Part shown: positions 1 to 18,347 of the stretch, piece by piece
Layout: each line of letters starts with the position of its first letter
How positions within the stretch are numbered: the first letter of the stretch is position 1
Virus record (IMG/VR): IMGVR_UViG_3300040801_003555
Coordinates: 1-26,059 of that record
DNA from: a virus
Strand: one strand, 5' to 3'
DNA length: 26,059 bases
Notes under the pieces: generated by a model
Told to the model about the DNA's origin: nothing
The model's database searches: none
The model's input: only the letters and a program-made list of their open reading frames with translations
Made by a program: the position numbers and the translations under genes

Positions 1-929
1 TCTCGGCCAACGCTCCGAATGCTGGCCATTCAGCCTACGACAATGAGGGCCGTCTGTTCATCCACAAAGTCCTGCCGAGCGGCGTGTTTAACTGCCCCAA
101 GTATATCATGGTAGGGCCTGGCGCGGTGTTCGACCCTGCTCGTCTGGAAATGGAAGTGAGCGACTTGATGGAAGCCGGACACATCGTCAAAGATTACACC
201 GAGGTCCTAGTTCACAACAACGCGGTCGTGCTTACCGACAAGATGCGCGACATGGAAGCGATGTCGGCAGTAACCGGTATTGCTTCTACTGCGCAAGGCT
301 CCGCAGCCGCGATGGTAGCCAAGATCATGCGAGACAAGGACAATTCCCCCATCGCCAGGGATTGCTACAGGCCCAATCCTAATTTGCCTATTCGTCTGGC
401 TACCAACAACTATTGGCAGTCAATAATGTTATACGCCAACCGTGTTCTGGCCGAAGGCGCTCAGGGATACAGCCTCGGGATCAACCAAGATTTTTACCCG
501 TACGGCACCAGCCGAGACTGCGGTCCGGCCCGGTTTCTGTCGGACATGGCAATCCCGGTTGGAAGGCTGCGACGTGTAATCGGTGTCGCCCGTACCTTCC
601 CGATCCGAGTCGGCAACACCGACAAGGGCAATAGCGGAGGTTGGTACGCGGACCAGAGAGAATTGACTTGGGACGAACTGGGAGTGACCCCGGAGAAGAC
701 AACCGTTACCGGGCGGATTCGCCGCGTGGCGTCGTTCTCAACCATACAGTTCGAGGAAGCTTTGGTCGAAATGTCCATCAACGAAGTTTTCTTGAACTTC
801 ATGAATTACGTTACCGAAAACGAGCAAAAACCAATCGTAAACGACCTGTCCGAGATCGCCGGTAGGCACGGCGCTGCCATTCGATGGCTCGGTTTCGGTC
901 CCAAAACCACAGACGTAAAGGCTATCTGA
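1..929 (+). CDS. purZ: PurZ-type adenylosuccinate synthetase homologue, 5' end missing
   Basis: The reading frame is open from base 3 to the TGA at 927-929, so the gene starts upstream of the window; the GTG at 84 is internal. The visible part carries adenylosuccinate synthetase signatures in order: NAGHS and LPSG near the left edge, GPGAVFDP, STAQGSAAA, EGAQGYSLGI, YPYGTSRD, RVGN, and TTVTGRIRR near the C-terminus. The N-terminal P-loop-like WGDEGKG segment is outside the window. In the PurZ branch of this family the enzyme joins aspartate to dGMP, giving the precursor of 2-aminoadenine (Z) deoxynucleotide. Assignment to PurZ rather than cellular PurA rests on the compact C-terminal half (about 310 residues visible, no long insertions) and on the neighbours, datZ 1 bp downstream and a mazZ-like gene. 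The residue that distinguishes PurZ from PurA in the active site lies upstream and cannot be checked here. Confidence 0.88.
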   Translation, partial: SANAPNAGHSAYDNEGRLFIHKVLPSGVFNCPKYIMVGPGAVFDPARLEMEVSDLMEAGHIVKDYTEVLVHNNAVVLTDKMRDMEAMSAVTGIASTAQGSAAAMVAKIMRDKDNSPIARDCYRPNPNLPIRLATNNYWQSIMLYANRVLAEGAQGYSLGINQDFYPYGTSRDCGPARFLSDMAIPVGRLRRVIGVARTFPIRVGNTDKGNSGGWYADQRELTWDELGVTPEKTTVTGRIRRVASFSTIQFEEALVEMSINEVFLNFMNYVTENEQKPIVNDLSEIAGRHGAAIRWLGFGPKTTDVKAI

Positions 930-930
930 C

Positions 931-1440
931 ATGAATGTACAGGATCAAGTAAGAGCGGTCGACGTGAAACGTTGGACCACCGTTCGCACCACCAGAAGCC
1001 AGTCGGTGGCCGAGCATTCGCATGTCGTGGCGCTGATTTCCATGAGGATGTGTCAACTCCTAGGGAGACCGGACATCCTTCCGTTGTGTGCTGCCTATGC
1101 CTGTATTCACGACCTGGACGAAGTAATCACCGGAGATATACCGTCCCCGACCAAGCGCAGATTCGATGAGACCACGCAAAAGACGTTGGGGTTGTATTCC
1201 GACGCGCTGGCCGTCACGTACGGGATTGATGTCCCGGAAGTAAAGAGCCTGGTCAAAGTGGCCGAGCGACTGGAAGAGGCGTGGTTCATAAACGAACACG
1301 GGGCCAGCATCCACGCATATCAGGTCCAGGGCAACATCATCGACAAACTGTACGAGGACTTCGACAGCCAAGAATCGCCCCTTTGGTTGGCAGCCAAGAA
1401 GATTTGGGACGATTTGGTGGACGGCAAACGCACCTGGTAG
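931..1440 (+). CDS. datZ: DatZ-like HD-domain dATP triphosphohydrolase
   Basis: This 169-residue protein starts at an ATG one base after the purZ stop, so it is probably translationally coupled. It is a small YfbR-type HD phosphohydrolase: SVAEHSHVVA (His29), the HD pair at 60-61 followed by LDEVITGDIPSPTKR, and an amphipathic segment VKVAERLEEAW at about 108-118. DatZ enzymes of Z-phages strip triphosphate from dATP, removing the competitor of dZTP during genome synthesis. Length matches the DatZ family (about 170-180 residues). The final metal ligand, usually Asp in an AD-x-LE context, appears here as Glu112 (AERLE). Glutamate can bind metal, so the enzyme may still be active. A generic 5'-deoxynucleotidase is the alternative; the position between purZ and mazZ favours DatZ. 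Confidence 0.85.
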   Translation: MNVQDQVRAVDVKRWTTVRTTRSQSVAEHSHVVALISMRMCQLLGRPDILPLCAAYACIHDLDEVITGDIPSPTKRRFDETTQKTLGLYSDALAVTYGIDVPEVKSLVKVAERLEEAWFINEHGASIHAYQVQGNIIDKLYEDFDSQESPLWLAAKKIWDDLVDGKRTW

Positions 1441-1870: not shown

Positions 1871-2290
1871 ATGGCCGGATTCAAGTATGACTCAGGAAAA
1901 ACCCGCTGGGAACTGTTGCCGATGGAAACCGTCGAGGAACTGGCAAAGGTCATGACCTACGGGGCCACCAAATACCCAGACGACAACTGGAAGAAGTTGG
2001 AGAATGCCGAGGACAGGTATTTCGCTGCGGCCATGCGTCATCTTTCAAAGCACAGAGCCGGGGAATTGGTGGATGAAGACTCGGGATTGCTGCACGCGGC
2101 CCATGCTGCATGCTGTTTGCTGATGGTACTGTGGTTCGCCACGCACCCGAAGGCACAGTGTGTGCCGCCCATGCAGCCACCCAGGCCGGAATTTCAACCA
2201 GAGAGGTTCCGAGTTCCGCCGCCACCGCCAATACCTCCTCTCCGGGTAGGGCAGTACCCGGCTCCGGTCGAGGACAGTTGCGACGATTAG
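1871..2290 (+). CDS. mazZ: MazZ-like dATP/dGTP diphosphohydrolase
   Basis: This 139-residue protein has a strong GAGGTGA ribosome-binding site 5 nt before its ATG. The N-terminal 95 residues match the dATP/dGTP diphosphohydrolase N-terminal domain (formerly DUF5664): KYDSGKTRWELLP at the start, VEELAKVMTYGATKYPDDNW, a central RYFAAAMRHLSKH helix, and DEDSGLLHAAHAACCLLML-like helices with the acidic and His residues of all-alpha NTP pyrophosphohydrolases. In Z-phages this class converts dGTP to dGMP, the substrate of PurZ. The last ~40 residues form an unusual proline-rich tail (PPMQPPRPEF... then PPPPPIPPL) that looks disordered and may mediate protein contacts. It is the final gene of the plus-strand cassette and ends just before the convergent late operon. 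The name mazZ is by context and family; nucleotide preference is inferred. Confidence 0.75.
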   Translation: MAGFKYDSGKTRWELLPMETVEELAKVMTYGATKYPDDNWKKLENAEDRYFAAAMRHLSKHRAGELVDEDSGLLHAAHAACCLLMVLWFATHPKAQCVPPMQPPRPEFQPERFRVPPPPPIPPLRVGQYPAPVEDSCDD

Positions 2291-2369: not shown

Positions 2370-2624
2370 CTATTCGGGAACGAACCCGCCGCCATATGGA
2401 AGGTCGCAGCAGTCCTTCGTAGGCATTCCGTCCGGGTCGGCAGTCCAACTGGCGTGACCAGCATCCCAGTACGCGGCCAGAACCGTGTCTTCGGAAGGGG
2501 TGGGGTTGTCGGCAATCAACAACCCGGCAGCCGCCGCCGACCTACCTTCGCAGTACGCCGTCATCTGTTTGGGGTTAGCATCCAGTTTGTTGGCGTCTTC
2601 GTTGTAGGCTAGTTTTCCGGGCAT
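2370..2624 (-). CDS. Small RMF-like protein, 84 aa
   Basis: The start is set at the ATG at 2624 because a GAGGAG box lies 6 nt upstream; the longer in-frame start at 2669 would overlap the preceding gene and lacks this site. The pattern AYCEGRSAAAAG, a proline-containing turn, and AAYWDAGHASW resembles short phage proteins related to ribosome modulation factor (E-G-x-x-A-x-x-G ... W-x-x-G-x-x-x-x). Members of that loose group are small, often annotated only as hypothetical, and some may bind ribosomes. It is the last gene of the late operon, 13 bp after the 527-aa virion gene. Function is unproven. Confidence 0.55.
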   Translation of the reverse strand: MPGKLAYNEDANKLDANPKQMTAYCEGRSAAAAGLLIADNPTPSEDTVLAAYWDAGHASWTADPDGMPTKDCCDLPYGGGFVPE

Positions 2625-2637
2625 CGTAATCTCCTCG

Positions 2638-4221
2638 CTAAAATTTCCCACGACCATATTCATCACCAAACTCTCGACCGCCGCTGACTCCCAAAATTTG
2701 AGATAGTTCCGGTAGCGGGTACGGAGTGTTTAGGCCCAAAGCGCCTGTTACTCCAAAATGTCCGCCAGTATTAAGATATGCTTTGGACATAATTGGACTC
2801 ATTATTCTGGCCGGTAACGTCATGGGATTGTTGATGGCCGACTGTAAAGCGGCCCCGGTTGGGGTGCCGGAATTCGGAACCGGGTTTTTAAAATAGTTGG
2901 CATTTATTGCTAACTCGTCAAGTTCGGATTTAGGCTTAACATATCCAGATTTTCTACGCGCATACTGGTAGAACATAGATGGCCTAAAATTACCACTATC
3001 GAGCGCTTTTGACCTTTCGATGTCCTTGAGGTTACGCCATTGATCTCTGTATTCCTTAAGCTCAGGTAGTCGGCCGAATTCCTTTTCGAATTCGTAGTCC
3101 AGGCCGTCTCGTAGGTCATACAAAGCTCGCTGCATGCCTCCGTCATCGGTTCTTCTGGCCAGCTTCGCCAGGTCCGAGGCATATTGTTGATATGCCTCGA
3201 CAGAGATGTACTTACCGTCGGCAATTTCAAGCATGTTGTCGATCAGCTTGGACAGTTTGGGGTCTCGCAGCAACCCTCGTTGGTATCCCGCATCGACCTC
3301 GTCCAGTTTGTTTATAAAATCATCGGTAAGAGGAACGAACCCCTTGCCTTTGCCTACCAACTCGTTGAATTTGTCCCCGAGTTCTTTGTGACGAAGGTCC
3401 AGCGTATAATCATCGATGCGGTCGGTCCCTTCCAAGCCGATGGCCCTGCGAGCAATCCCATTGGCCACGTCTTGGTTTCTGGCTTCGACCTCCAAGAATG
3501 GACCCGACATAAACGGGTCTCGAGCCATCCCGGCTTCTATTTGCTGTAGATGTGAACTGCCGCGACGTTGCGCCGGGGTGAGTTCCATTCCTAACCGTTT
3601 AGCACTGGCTACCTTTTCGGCGTGAACGCCTTGGTCGATTCCGACATTGGGTGCTCTTGGTCGACCGATAAGTGCACTGGACAACAGCTTCCCGCCCATG
3701 GCCCCGGCACCGCCAAATGCTGCTGATTGCAGCGCATCTCCGACTTGGCCGCCGCTGGCTACATATTCGTCGGCCCCAGATATCCCGGCGTTGATTAAAC
3801 CAGTTCCGATAAACCCTTTGGCCAAATTGCCACCAGGAATAGCCATGGACGGCAGAGCTTCGCCCACACTTGTTGCGACGGGAGAAATTTCGCGCAACGG
3901 GGCAAATTCCTCTTCGCGCCGTTGGCGCAAAACATCTTGCTCGGCCATGCCGGATTCATCTCCGGTCAACCAATCAAACCCCTTGGTTAGGCCACCACCC
4001 CAGTCGGTTATTTTTTTGCCGGCACCTACCATCATTGGGCCAATAATCGGCCCCAGATCGGCGCTGGCATTGGATTGGGCTTGGGCCTGTTTGTCCCACT
4101 TGGGCAACTGGTTGCTGACCTTCATTCTGATGCGATCAGCTAGCCCGGCATCCCCCATGGACATGGCCAGTTGGTATGCTTCCCTGAGACGTTTTACTTC
4201 TGGATGTTCTTCAAGTTGCAT
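2638..4221 (-). CDS. Large internal/ejection virion protein, 527 aa
   Basis: The ATG at 4221 overlaps the upstream gene's stop as TAATG, indicating coupled translation. After a charged helical N-terminus (residues 1-50) come several glycine-rich hydrophobic stretches (about 57-80 GPIIGPMMVGAG, 130-150 NLAKGFIGTGLINAGISGA, 160-187 SAAFGGAGAMGG), then a long helical region (about 200-430) containing LTPAQRRGSSHLQQIEAGMA. Amphipathic glycine-rich segments beside long helices are typical of podovirus internal proteins that leave the capsid with the DNA and line a channel through the host envelope. Its place directly after the tail-lysozyme protein supports this. No enzymatic motif is visible, and the role is inferred from composition and position. 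Confidence 0.62.
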   Translation of the reverse strand: MQLEEHPEVKRLREAYQLAMSMGDAGLADRIRMKVSNQLPKWDKQAQAQSNASADLGPIIGPMMVGAGKKITDWGGGLTKGFDWLTGDESGMAEQDVLRQRREEEFAPLREISPVATSVGEALPSMAIPGGNLAKGFIGTGLINAGISGADEYVASGGQVGDALQSAAFGGAGAMGGKLLSSALIGRPRAPNVGIDQGVHAEKVASAKRLGMELTPAQRRGSSHLQQIEAGMARDPFMSGPFLEVEARNQDVANGIARRAIGLEGTDRIDDYTLDLRHKELGDKFNELVGKGKGFVPLTDDFINKLDEVDAGYQRGLLRDPKLSKLIDNMLEIADGKYISVEAYQQYASDLAKLARRTDDGGMQRALYDLRDGLDYEFEKEFGRLPELKEYRDQWRNLKDIERSKALDSGNFRPSMFYQYARRKSGYVKPKSELDELAINANYFKNPVPNSGTPTGAALQSAINNPMTLPARIMSPIMSKAYLNTGGHFGVTGALGLNTPYPLPELSQILGVSGGREFGDEYGRGKF

Positions 4222-13394: not shown

Positions 13395-13725
13395 CGATCT
13401 GGGGGCCAGATTCATAAATGATCTCCACGGCGCGACCGGCGTCGATGTTCTCGGCACCAGACCAAAACAGGGCCACGACGCCGACGACGGTTCCGGCCCC
13501 GAGCTTCGCCCAACCGCGCCCGCGCCGAGACTCCCACCACGGTTTTGTCGGCGCGGGCGATTTGAGTAAATCCTGTTCGCGCGCCCTGAGCGCTCGCAAC
13601 GTAGCCGGGCCGAGGTATCCATCCGCGCTACTTAAACCTCGGCCGTTGAGCTCCGGCAAATAACCCTGCTCGATCAGCTCCAGTTGAAGCGCTCGGGTCT
13701 CGTAGGAGAAAACGTCAGCGTTCAT
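13126..13725 (-). CDS. Peptidoglycan-binding protein with two membrane segments, holin-like, 199 aa
   Basis: The start is the ATG at 13725 (MNADVFSYETRALQLELI), inside the last 11 bases of the endolysin gene. Residues 5-50 look like a PG_binding_1-type fold: a first helix, GYLPELNGRGLSSADGYLGP and ATLRALRARE. Two hydrophobic segments follow (about 75-89 KLGAGTVVGVVALFW and 119-140 RLAEVVGLLLAAFGFG), then a basic C-terminus. A murein-binding head fused to membrane helices beside an endolysin suggests a holin or a membrane-tethered lysis protein. The C-terminal coding part is overlapped by the candidate lipoprotein frame. Exact family unknown. Confidence 0.65.
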   Translation of the reverse strand: MNADVFSYETRALQLELIEQGYLPELNGRGLSSADGYLGPATLRALRAREQDLLKSPAPTKPWWESRRGRGWAKLGAGTVVGVVALFWSGAENIDAGRAVEIIYESGPQIDAAIEVGKRLAEVVGLLLAAFGFGQSVVGAVKAKGPLDPTLVARVGSRDIRVPAVVRKRARHDQVPTVSSDRKRDGGYWGRQRGPLDPE

Positions 13726-14326
13726 TGAAGGGACCCTTGCGCGTGATCGGAAATCGAGCAGAAGCGTCGGCGTTGCCCTCCTCCGGCTTTGGTCTGGGCT
13801 CTTCCTCTCGCTCAACGCTCTGATTTTCCACCATTGCTAAAGCATCACGTTCGACATCGAGAACCCGGCGCGACCATCCACGCCCGAACGTGCGCCACGT
13901 GCTCAGCGTCTTCAGCCACGCCAGTCGGCGCGAGCACAGCCTACGAATTGTCTCTTCGATGTCTTGCCGGTCCGCCTCGGCAATCACATTGGAATTCACG
14001 ATGGAACGATCAGGAATACCCAAAGCCGAACAAAGAAATCGCACTGCGCGAGCGGGTCCTGAATTCACCGCAAAGTCGAACACCGCGTAATCCAGCCCGG
14101 ACGGCAGGTCATCGCCACGTACGACGTCCCAGTATCCCTCCAAATAAATCTTCCGCACTTTGGCCATCGGGATGGATCGCATCGAGCCCATATAGCCGTG
14201 AGATCTGGCCGTGCGGCGCGTTATGCCGTAGTTCGTCTCACCACCAGGGTCTCTCGGGTGATTTACGTACCCGCCCTCGTGAGCGAGGACGTGGTGTAAT
14301 GCAATCTCGAAATTTTCGGATGTCAT
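13715..14326 (-). CDS. Endolysin, GH108-type muramidase with C-terminal peptidoglycan-binding domain, 203 aa
   Basis: The start is the ATG at 14326, coupled by ATGA to the 154-aa gene. Residues 8-40 carry the GH108 signature: a helix leading into HEGGYVNHP with catalytic Glu17, and DPGGETNYGITRRT at 26-39. AKVRKIYLEGYWD and YAVFDFAVNSGPARA follow as in the family. Residues 115-175 fit the PG_binding_3 domain, including RRLAWLKTLSTWRTFGRGW and RVLDVERDAL. The last ~30 residues are a charged Glu/Pro tail. It cleaves peptidoglycan glycan strands once the membrane is opened. No signal peptide is seen, so it needs a holin. Confidence 0.88.
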   Translation of the reverse strand: MTSENFEIALHHVLAHEGGYVNHPRDPGGETNYGITRRTARSHGYMGSMRSIPMAKVRKIYLEGYWDVVRGDDLPSGLDYAVFDFAVNSGPARAVRFLCSALGIPDRSIVNSNVIAEADRQDIEETIRRLCSRRLAWLKTLSTWRTFGRGWSRRVLDVERDALAMVENQSVEREEEPRPKPEEGNADASARFPITRKGPFNER

Positions 14327-14787
14327 CCTTCTGGATCCGGAAACAACGCATTTATCTCTTCTTGTGTCATTAGAGAGGCCGCAGCAGATGCCGGCAGCAT
14401 ATCCCCGAGACGCACTGAAATAACCGGCTCTTGTCCGTTCAGAGATGGATCGCCGCGATCCGGTAACGCCTGGAGTGCACCGACGATTTGAGACCATCCC
14501 GCAATCTCAGCAGGCTCGGGTTGACTAGCGAAATTTTTCAGCAACACCCCAACCGTGCCGCTGGTTAATGGATCTGAATAAACGATACCATCTTTATGAA
14601 CGACAACATCGTAATCCAAATCGAGCCGGATTGCTCCGCGCCCATCGGGCAATTCGATGGATTCAAACATCCTAGCCCCGACATCTTGTTTAGCGATGCT
14701 GTAGGGGCGGCCGAGCCGGTATAGCTGTTGGGAGCAAGCGTCAGCCTCTTCGATTGACGAAAATCCTGGGTAATATTTAATATTCAT
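14323..14787 (-). CDS. Unknown protein next to the variable-type display protein, 154 aa
   Basis: No family is recognised. The start at 14787 has GGGTGG just upstream and lies 10 bp after the 602-aa gene. The protein is acidic and looks globular: YYPGFSSIEEADACSQQLYRLG at the start, a strand-turn segment (AIRLDLDYDVVVHKDGIVYSD), and a helical end (SLMTQEEINALFP). A small gene directly after a display protein could be a fibre-assembly helper, and the following gene is the endolysin, so either link is possible. Confidence 0.6.
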   Translation of the reverse strand: MNIKYYPGFSSIEEADACSQQLYRLGRPYSIAKQDVGARMFESIELPDGRGAIRLDLDYDVVVHKDGIVYSDPLTSGTVGVLLKNFASQPEPAEIAGWSQIVGALQALPDRGDPSLNGQEPVISVRLGDMLPASAAASLMTQEEINALFPDPEG

Positions 14788-14797
14788 GTTCCACCCA

Positions 14798-16606
14798 TTA
14801 AGCGACGAAAGCCGGGCGAGCGCCGATGAACGGGCTCGCGTTCACGCGAGCGCTGGTCAGGTTAAACGCGAACACGCCAGCGTCGGCCGCGCTGGCCCAA
14901 TAGCCGCCGCGGCGCGGCAGACGCTCTCCGGACTCGGTCCAGTAAAATCGATCGCTGTTGAGCCCGCTCGGGGCGATCGGAAACAGCCCGAGACGCTTGC
15001 AGAGCGCCAGCGCATCCGCGCCGACGGGGGTCGCCCCCGGATTGCTCATCGTCTCGACCGGCGCGCCGGTCGCCGCGACCAGGCTGTAATCGGCCGTGCC
15101 GGACCCGGCGTAGCGCACCACACCGGAGGACCCCGGTGCCACCAACGCGCCGGTCGCCCCGTCGATCGCACGCCAAGCCACTGAGCCGACAGCATCATCC
15201 GTCGCGCTCAGCGCCATGTCGTTGTCGGCAATTACGTTGATCTCGCCATCGACGATCCGCAGGCCGGGTGCCCACTCCCAGACGTTTCCGCAGAGATCCG
15301 CAATACCGGACGGCGTGCGGTCGTGCCGCCATGCGCTCGGCCCGGAACCGGTCAGCGTGCGTTCCCCGCCGGAGCCGGAGCCCCCGATCGTGATCGCGCG
15401 ACCATTTTCCTGGATACCGTACTCGCTCGTATCGTCGCTGGATCGACCGTAATCGGTATTGCCGCGCGGCATCCAGCCACCTTTCCAGCAGCGCAAACTG
15501 ATGGCCGCCCATTCGGCGTTGGTCATCACGTGCCAGCCCGCGCCGTTGGCGCGGGCCAGGGCAACGGCGCCATCGTGATTGATCGTGTGCGCAACCGCGC
15601 GCCCCGGCTGGCTGATCAGCTCGCCGTTGACGGATGCGCCGCAGAATTGTCCGATCAGGATTTCCGACTTCTCCACGCCGCCGACGACAAACGCCGGATG
15701 GGTGCCGGTGCCGAGGCTGGCGTCGATCTCTTCGACATTAAATTTTGGCAGCACGTACATCATGCACGGCTGCCCCTTGGCGGTGTAGAGCACCGTGTTG
15801 CGCCCCTGGCTTTGCGCTTCGACCTGATTTCTCAAGGCATCAGGTGTGTAGATCGTGAGCAGAGTCGGGGTGTGGAGTGCGTTGAGATAAAGGGGCGATT
15901 GCCAAAACTGGGAGGCATTCCTTGCAGCCGCAACCAAGTCGGATGCAGGAGTATCCGATTTAAGTATGTGTTGCTCGTTGGCATTCAGCTCGTAAGCACC
16001 GCTGGCAATCGACGGGATCAACGACAGATGGACGTTCTTTTCGTGGTCCACGCGTAATTGATACGCGTTGGTCAACCCGCTCGGCAACGTTGCTGCCACA
16101 TAAGTTCCGGCTGCTGCAGAAATCGGTAACCGTGCCTCGGAAAGATCGACGTGTGGTTGCGCAGCCGTCGTCGTTTGAACTGCATTCGCACTTCCTTCCC
16201 CGAGCGCATACATCCGCGATATCGTTACCGCGCTTGCACCTGCCCAGGTTAATACTGCGTCGGGCGACAAGAACCCGCGATTGTCGAACCCGAAATCTTC
16301 CTCGTCACTGTCCGATGTTCTGCGTAGCGTTACCCCGGTTTCTCCGCTGTCGCGAGAAATGTCGCGCATGCTCCAAGCGTGAAGGAGGTCTGTCGGATCT
16401 GTTAGGTGCTCCAGTATGCCGCCGATATCCAAACTCGACAAGTCAAATCCGGCACCAATAGGATAAATAGTTTTATCGAATCCGATATCGCAAAACGGAC
16501 CGGGCAAGTCTGATTGCGGAATATAGCTCAAAGCCGCTTCAACGGCCCCGGCGTCGCTCATGTCGATGCCGGTAGGTAAAACGATGAGGCCGTTGTTCGC
16601 CGCCAT
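14798..16606 (-). CDS. 602-aa display protein with C-terminal C-type-lectin/FGE fold, DGR-target-like
   Basis: The ATG at 16606 directly follows the previous stop (TAAATG). Residues 1-130 look beta-rich (LamG-like at a guess) and 130-290 form a helical/beta linker. From about 290 there is a formylglycine-generating-enzyme-like C-type-lectin fold: GRAVAHTINHDGAVALARANG, GWHVMTNAEWAAISL, RTPSGIADLCGNVWEW (CGNVWEW at 439-445), then FYWTESG and RGGYWASAADAGVFAFNL near the end, closing IGARPAF. This is the standard layout of proteins diversified by retroelements (Mtd/TvpA class), which bind receptors through the final ~40 residues. The C-terminal half is much more GC-rich than the N-terminal half. 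It lies between head and lysis genes. No reverse transcriptase is in the window. A fixed, non-DGR adhesin is the alternative. Confidence 0.7.
   Translation of the reverse strand: MAANNGLIVLPTGIDMSDAGAVEAALSYIPQSDLPGPFCDIGFDKTIYPIGAGFDLSSLDIGGILEHLTDPTDLLHAWSMRDISRDSGETGVTLRRTSDSDEEDFGFDNRGFLSPDAVLTWAGASAVTISRMYALGEGSANAVQTTTAAQPHVDLSEARLPISAAAGTYVAATLPSGLTNAYQLRVDHEKNVHLSLIPSIASGAYELNANEQHILKSDTPASDLVAAARNASQFWQSPLYLNALHTPTLLTIYTPDALRNQVEAQSQGRNTVLYTAKGQPCMMYVLPKFNVEEIDASLGTGTHPAFVVGGVEKSEILIGQFCGASVNGELISQPGRAVAHTINHDGAVALARANGAGWHVMTNAEWAAISLRCWKGGWMPRGNTDYGRSSDDTSEYGIQENGRAITIGGSGSGGERTLTGSGPSAWRHDRTPSGIADLCGNVWEWAPGLRIVDGEINVIADNDMALSATDDAVGSVAWRAIDGATGALVAPGSSGVVRYAGSGTADYSLVAATGAPVETMSNPGATPVGADALALCKRLGLFPIAPSGLNSDRFYWTESGERLPRRGGYWASAADAGVFAFNLTSARVNASPFIGARPAFVA
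14810..14945 (-). other. Candidate variable repeat (VR) of a diversity-generating retroelement
   Basis: This segment encodes residues from about 553 to 598 of the display protein. At positions where related variable proteins usually have Asn (in the pattern GG-N-W-N-N-x-x-N-A-G-V-F-A-x-N-L-N-N-A-R), the codons here are TAT, GCC, AGC, GAC, ACC and AGC. All end in C or T, as expected if AAC/AAT template codons were changed only at their adenines. No matching template repeat was found in the window. Confidence 0.4.
14834..14851 (-). repeat. Perfect 7-bp hairpin inside the candidate variable repeat
   Basis: GCTCGCG (14834-14840) and CGCGAGC (14845-14851) flank a 4-nt loop near the 3' end of the display-protein gene. 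Short GC-rich hairpins or cruciforms near the 3' end of variable repeats are known to matter in retroelement homing; here it lies within the coding region. It could also be incidental in GC-rich DNA. Confidence 0.55.
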
Positions 16607-16822
16607 TTATGTCACCGATATGCAAGAGTCATCGTCAACGTGGATGTCGCTGATCGAATACGACTTGAAGGATTCCACCAAGACACAACTGTCGGCATCC
16701 AGAGACGCAGCTACAGGAGGTCCGGCCGAAAACCGATGGCCGCTGGTCTTGATCCACGTATTGGGTCCGACGCGAGTGGCCACGACCCTACCAAAACGCA
16801 TCGGAACCAATGTCCTGAGCAT
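16607..16822 (-). CDS. Unknown head-region protein, 71 aa
   Basis: It starts at the ATG at 16822, adjacent to the previous stop (TAAATG), with GGAGC about 7 nt upstream. No family is recognised. The sequence looks beta-rich and compact (GRVVATRVGPNTWIKTSG, then a Ser-rich strand region FKSYSISDIHVDDD). The position between capsid genes and the display protein suggests a head decoration, head completion or fibre-attachment role, but nothing in the sequence shows which. Confidence 0.6.
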   Translation of the reverse strand: MLRTLVPMRFGRVVATRVGPNTWIKTSGHRFSAGPPVAASLDADSCVLVESFKSYSISDIHVDDDSCISVT

Positions 16823-17297: not shown

Positions 17298-18347
17298 TTA
17301 CCCTGCAGTGACCGCCAAGGCCGGGTTGATGCCCATGATTACGAACGAAGATTTTTCGTTCTTGGCGATGTTGCAGTAGTCCACCGACATCAGCCGCTTT
17401 TCCGCAAGACCGGTGCGGGCCAACGGCTTGGTCATGATTTTCTGCAGATAGCCGATCGCCCAGTACTCCGGGTCGAACCCGTAAACGTTACAATTGGCCA
17501 CCACGTTGGTGTAGGTCAACTGAGACCGGTTCGGGCACAGCTCCAGGGTGTGGAAATCGGTGATGATGGTGGTCACCGAGCCGATTGCCGTGACACCTTG
17601 ACGTTCGTACATGCCGTCCTTGACGCTTGACGGAGTGACGTTCGACTGGATGGTAGCGATACGGGCCGAGGAGGAGAACAGGTACTCGGACAGCTTGCGG
17701 ATCAGAGCCGGGACCGACATCAGGATCGACGGCATGCCGCCAGCCGTGTAGGCGAGCTCCGAACCGTTACGAACGTCCATTTCGGTCATCGCCCGAGACG
17801 CGCTCGGGGTAGGAGCCGAGAAGATACCGTTCAAGAAACCGCCAGCGGTGCCGTTGATGATGTTCGTTTCGAACATCGCTCCACAACCGGCGGTTTTACC
17901 GGCGACGGCATCGCCGTTGTCTTCGACCGAAGCTTGGTTGCTCAGGAAAGTGGCTTCCATCCGCTTCTTCAGCTCCTTCTGGCGCTCCATCAACTGGTAC
18001 ACCAGCTCATCGGACCGACCGATGGTGTCGACGTTACGAGCACGGTCGGAGACCTGAACGATCTTGGTGGATTCCTGGTGGTGGTTGCCGATACGGCGCC
18101 CGGTAGTGGAATCGTTGCCGGTAACGTCGGCACCGTCAACCACTGCGTTGGCCAACTGCACGGCTTCGAGGGAATCCTGCGTCCAGGACCGATATTGGTT
18201 CTTAGACTTGGGAGCCTCACCGGCCATGTCCTGGTACGGCAAATCCACCGGGTCCAGGCTGTAAATGGCGTCCATCACGTCTTCACGGATGAGACCTTGA
18301 TAAGGACGACCCTTGAGATCGGCAGCGTCCAAATTGGTTGTGGCCAT
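17298..18347 (-). CDS. Major capsid protein, SU10-like (DUF5309 type), 349 aa
   Basis: AGAGGT lies about 6 nt before the ATG, the best ribosome-binding site in the operon, fitting the most abundant virion protein. The sequence has the SU10/DUF5309 capsid pattern: GLIREDVMDAIYSLDPVDLP then PYQDMAG, an N-Y-R-S-W-T-Q-D-S-L segment, NHHQESTKIVQVSDRAR, a long helix with ERQKELKKRMEATFLS, and a C-terminal NVYGFDPEYWAIGYLQKI and SVDYCNIAKNEKSSFVI. The size (349) suits an HK97-fold shell protein. It follows the scaffold gene by 3 bp. Hundreds of copies would form the capsid. Confidence 0.88.
   Translation of the reverse strand: MATTNLDAADLKGRPYQGLIREDVMDAIYSLDPVDLPYQDMAGEAPKSKNQYRSWTQDSLEAVQLANAVVDGADVTGNDSTTGRRIGNHHQESTKIVQVSDRARNVDTIGRSDELVYQLMERQKELKKRMEATFLSNQASVEDNGDAVAGKTAGCGAMFETNIINGTAGGFLNGIFSAPTPSASRAMTEMDVRNGSELAYTAGGMPSILMSVPALIRKLSEYLFSSSARIATIQSNVTPSSVKDGMYERQGVTAIGSVTTIITDFHTLELCPNRSQLTYTNVVANCNVYGFDPEYWAIGYLQKIMTKPLARTGLAEKRLMSVDYCNIAKNEKSSFVIMGINPALAVTAG

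Follow-up and report, generated by a model that had tools for sequence, protein, structure and literature searches.

TaqVP, encoded by a prophage of Thermus aquaticus, is a diversity-generating retroelement (DGR) variable protein of solved structure (PDB 5VF4; PMC6328139). It has an FGE-type C-type-lectin domain with a C-terminal variable region of the form RGG-x-W...GARPAFV, and its gene sits in a DGR with avd, a template repeat (TR) and a reverse transcriptase (RT) gene. Efficient homing in BPP-1 depends on a GC-rich hairpin, its loop of the GRNA type, that lies just after the variable repeat (VR) (PMC3240598). Two phage systems have targets of the TaqVP-like family. Pseudomonas phage Bise, which has contractile-tail genes, carries a DGR consisting of an FGE gene, a four-helix-bundle/Avd gene and an RT gene, with both TR and post-VR hairpin present. 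The DGR of Vibrio phages VHML and VP58.5 looks active: the two phages share one TR sequence, and the 11 bases at which the VRs diverge are all TR adenines. Incomplete loci have also been described: in Thiohalocapsa PB-PSB1, degenerate DGR loci consist of target genes lacking part of the machinery; intact DGRs are present in the genome too, and for some of the degenerate loci diversification in trans has been inferred (PMC10907252).

The 26,059-nucleotide stretch of viral DNA analysed here (the window) encodes a TaqVP-like protein of 602 amino acids (14798..16606, minus strand). Like the degenerate Thiohalocapsa loci, this target gene stands without its machinery; unlike them, it is not accompanied by an intact DGR in the DNA in view. 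Most likely the protein is a DGR target that has been orphaned (decommissioned): a podovirus-like Z-genome (2-aminoadenine) phage would have acquired its gene as a module, and the protein would now have a fixed role in display or receptor binding.

The target protein and its relatives

Family and structure matches identify the ORF as a homologue of TaqVP and a member of the DGR-target family. Its FGE/C-type-lectin domain spans residues ~250-601; residues 253-601 match TaqVP (E=6.5e-87) and residues 243-602 match phrog_2889 (E=1e-117), although Pfam on its own does not detect the FGE domain. The AlphaFold core matches 5VF4 in Foldseek (E=3.8e-31, TM 0.72, target-normalised), and the structural alignment gives 44-45% identity. 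The ORF is real, and a preliminary description that had read its C-terminal end as an FGE/C-type-lectin fold is borne out in its landmarks, CGNVWEW at residues 439-445 and a terminus that reads RGGYW...AGVFAFNL...IGARPAFVA. Compared with TaqVP, the protein has an extra N-terminal part of 250 residues, for which no family was found and phage matches are weak only; the AlphaFold model of this part is unreliable (pLDDT ~25-50).

The C-terminal domain has homologues in 54 phage records, 10 viral contigs and ~20 bacterial genomes, and an RT and/or a TR adjoins the target gene in 33 of the loci examined. In a tree built from the domain minus its VR, the window protein nests within the DGR family and belongs to a clade with 100/99 support. 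The state of the machinery varies within this clade: two members (L001/L002) have a DGR, and a prophage from a Paraperlucidibaca MAG (L053) and the Klebsiella phages lack RT. Bise, which has a DGR and whose target domain is 45% identical to that of the window, adjoins the clade. Over the whole tree, lack of RT changes at least four times. Phages thus repeatedly keep a diversifiable lectin after losing the retroelement, or never take the retroelement along, and because orphan targets recur in this way, annotation as a variable protein does not by itself imply hypermutation.

The Paraperlucidibaca prophage is the closest full-length relative (56%). As in the window, neither RT nor TR was found in its genome, a MAG that may be incomplete; unlike the window, it retains a hairpin with a GATA loop 46 bases behind its VR, so that L053:5989-7130 is an orphan FGE target with its hairpin intact. 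A gene for a Dam-like methylase follows this target on the opposite strand, and a Dam gene likewise follows the RT gene in Bise. Klebsiella phages KPN N137 and Kp4871-1, Salicola phage CGphi29 and Vibrio lentus phage 1.119.O have an FGE gene with no hairpin and no RT in the whole record; none of the four has PurZ, for which the window has a candidate gene.

The variable repeat and its codon footprint

Alignment with 16 TR/VR pairs places the former VR (GERLPRRGGYW...IGARPAF, residues 560-600) at 14807..14929 on the minus strand, slightly different in its bounds from the repeat at 14810-14945 that had been proposed. The TR/VR pairs of relatives are mismatched almost solely at template adenines, and their templates have AAY codons (Asn) at ten columns, with a few templates deviating at single columns. 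The ten columns, which the window has in common with VHML and VP58.5, correspond in the window to minus-strand codons spanning 14828..14902: 14900-14902, 14894-14896, 14891-14893, 14882-14884, 14861-14863, 14855-14857, 14852-14854, 14840-14842, 14834-14836 and 14828-14830. In that order they read TAT GCC AGC GAC AAC ACC AGC AAC AGC TTC and encode Y A S D N T S N S F. All ten are of the form NNY, as expected of the TaqVP-like family, and they include the six codons ending in C or T that had been singled out earlier (TAT, GCC, AGC, GAC, ACC, AGC).

Against the NNY rate of the window domain itself (0.59), ten of ten has a probability of 0.005. With the amino acids fixed and the third bases alone free to vary, third-base agreement has a probability of ~0.10-0.12, so that the codon pattern by itself is supportive but modest. 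The protein keeps the codon footprint of adenine mutagenesis. The second probability is also what favours the reading that the protein is an FGE-fold phage protein that was never a DGR target, its codon pattern reflecting chance and base composition. That reading is nevertheless very unlikely, given the identity to TaqVP in the structural alignment, the strongly supported nesting among DGR targets, and the fit of all ten columns to the template layout without a gap.

The footprint shows ancestry rather than present activity. DGR-bearing loci have NNY at nine or ten of the ten columns (8/9 in one locus with a gapped column), and RT-less phages are of both kinds: four of six RT-less phage records are eroded, with 5, 6, 7 and 8 of 10, and two are intact. 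The Klebsiella phages KPN N137 and Kp4871-1, at 7-8 of 10, are among the eroded ones, in contrast to the window. The two intact cases, Salicola phage CGphi29 (L019:4749-5933) and Vibrio lentus phage 1.119.O (L022:4557-5921), are further orphan targets. That the window footprint is whole when most RT-less records are eroded counts against an orphaned target, and suggests either recent loss of the machinery or diversification that is still ongoing from elsewhere.

Missing machinery and landing signal

Apart from the target gene, no component of a DGR was found in the window, which covers an estimated two-thirds of the genome. The PF00078 profile finds no RT in the 26 kb, consistent with the preliminary description, and the same profile matches 17 of 26 relatives. 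Nor does the window contain an Avd-like gene according to PF05635, a model that matches all five DGR-bearing control phages, or a TR on either strand. The search that had been proposed for RT, Avd and TR thus comes back empty for the 26 kb, and the invariant core of the VR has no exact match in the collections of viral contigs and species genomes.

The gene neighbourhood also leaves little place for an adjacent cassette, and none lies beside 14798-16606. Every TR found in relatives is downstream of its VR, at a distance of 526-1137 bp. In the window the next gene begins 10 bases after the stop codon of the 602-aa ORF and encodes, at the place of the relatives' TR and Avd, a 154-aa protein of unknown function (14323..14787, minus strand) that has no known relative in the phage collection. 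It is followed by a GH108 endolysin ORF (13715..14497, minus strand), whose true start is probably internal, so that there is no room for the usual TR, Avd and RT. Directly upstream of the target gene are a 71-aa protein with no family match (16607..16822, minus strand) and, further on, the major capsid protein (17298..18347, minus strand).

The landing signal is missing as well. No GRNA-loop hairpin was found in the stretch behind the VR (14680..14806, minus strand), and none with an exact stem of at least 6 bp anywhere in the 26 kb. The hairpin is present in 31 of the 33 loci with a DGR, usually 42-50 bases beyond the VR, and in one, L053, of the eight RT-less loci, among which the window is counted. 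The association gives Fisher P=1.2e-5 (4.8e-5 when the window is left out), values that are nominal because related loci are not independent. A GRNA-loop hairpin at this distance is a readable sign by which live and orphaned targets can be told apart in this family. Its absence from the window speaks against homing by a DGR located remotely or in the host, no less than by a local one. Counting the other way, 2 of the 33 DGR loci likewise lack a recognisable hairpin.

The window is a 26-kb fragment and, judging from the 41-kb Ochrobactrum phage OH, about one-third of the genome lies outside it; this counts against an orphaned target and leaves a remote DGR a small probability. An active DGR in the remaining third, diversifying the target from a distance, would account for the intact footprint, and remote targets do escape surveys (PMC8144416). 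The short TR-VR distances in relatives, the missing hairpin and the lack of RT in nine Z phages, OH and BUCT555 among them, make such an arrangement very unlikely. Least probable of all is diversification in trans, whether the DGR belongs to the host, to a resident prophage or to a co-infecting phage. Although such diversification is inferred for some of the incomplete Thiohalocapsa PB-PSB1 loci, the VR core has no exact match in the species genomes and viral contigs searched, which need not include the host, the hairpin that BPP-1 needs is missing, and VRs that lack machinery are frozen among isolates of other phages: those of five RT-less Vibrio lentus phages are 100% identical and those of six RT-less Klebsiella isolates are 99.4-100% identical.

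With machinery and landing signal both missing from view, the target protein is most likely a frozen leftover, and we infer that the phage has no DGR machinery elsewhere. An orphaned target would have arisen as follows. An FGE/C-type-lectin domain of the TaqVP type, with DGR-diversified targets as its ancestors, would have been fused to a different N-terminal part, and the gene module may have entered a podovirus-like PurZ/DatZ phage between the capsid and lysis genes. TR, Avd and RT would have stayed behind or been lost, and the hairpin after the VR would be gone. The ten former variable residues would stay as a fixed ligand-binding face, and further change would come by point mutation and recombination only. 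With that face kept, the protein is most likely an ordinary virion display or receptor-binding protein.

A probable Z-genome phage with a putative accessory target gene

The left end of the window carries genes expected of a phage with 2-aminoadenine DNA. A PurZ-like 2-aminoadenylosuccinate synthetase gene (3..929, plus strand), whose N-terminus is cut by the window edge and whose product is 45% identical to phiVC8 PurZ, is followed by genes for a DatZ-like HD dATP triphosphohydrolase (931..1440, plus strand) and a dATP/dGTP diphosphohydrolase (1871..2290, plus strand). Between the latter two is a gene for a 139-aa protein (1447-1866) that matches phrog_2165, a family labelled DNA helicase. 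The presence of PurZ together with dATP hydrolase genes makes a Z-genome phage plausible. The gene order resembles that of phages OH and BUCT555, which suggests that the window covers the structural arm and that the replication arm, with any DpoZ, lies outside it; a DpoZ polymerase would lie beyond the left end of the window, as in OH and phiVC8.

The preliminary description had raised the prospect of a DGR operating in such a phage. What stands of this is a DGR-type target, with its family and codon footprint, in a possible Z phage with PurZ and DatZ genes; an operating DGR is not supported, as the 26 kb have no RT, Avd or TR, no post-VR hairpin and a cassette place that is already filled. 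Wider searches point the same way. No RT was found in nine other Z phages (the syntenic OH and BUCT555 among them), and no PurZ in 33 other phage or viral records, 17 of which have RT. No FGE homologue was detected in the nine Z phages, in a search without a positive control. A literature search found no paper on DGRs in 2-aminoadenine phages, and no example of a DGR working in Z-DNA was found. A functioning DGR, remote or in trans and independent of the hairpin, that diversifies the display protein of a phage with 2-aminoadenine DNA is very unlikely given the missing hairpin and cassette.

Searches by portal, terminase and PurZ for closer relatives of the phage returned only short contigs (the best two with 57-70% identity) or known Z phages. 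In the nearest contig that covers this region (L027, TerL ~70%), the target gene is absent at this place, which makes the gene look like an inserted accessory module. The window (2370-2669) and L027 (6957-7556) also encode, at different genome positions, small proteins that share motifs of the AYCEGR...ALPYGGGF type.
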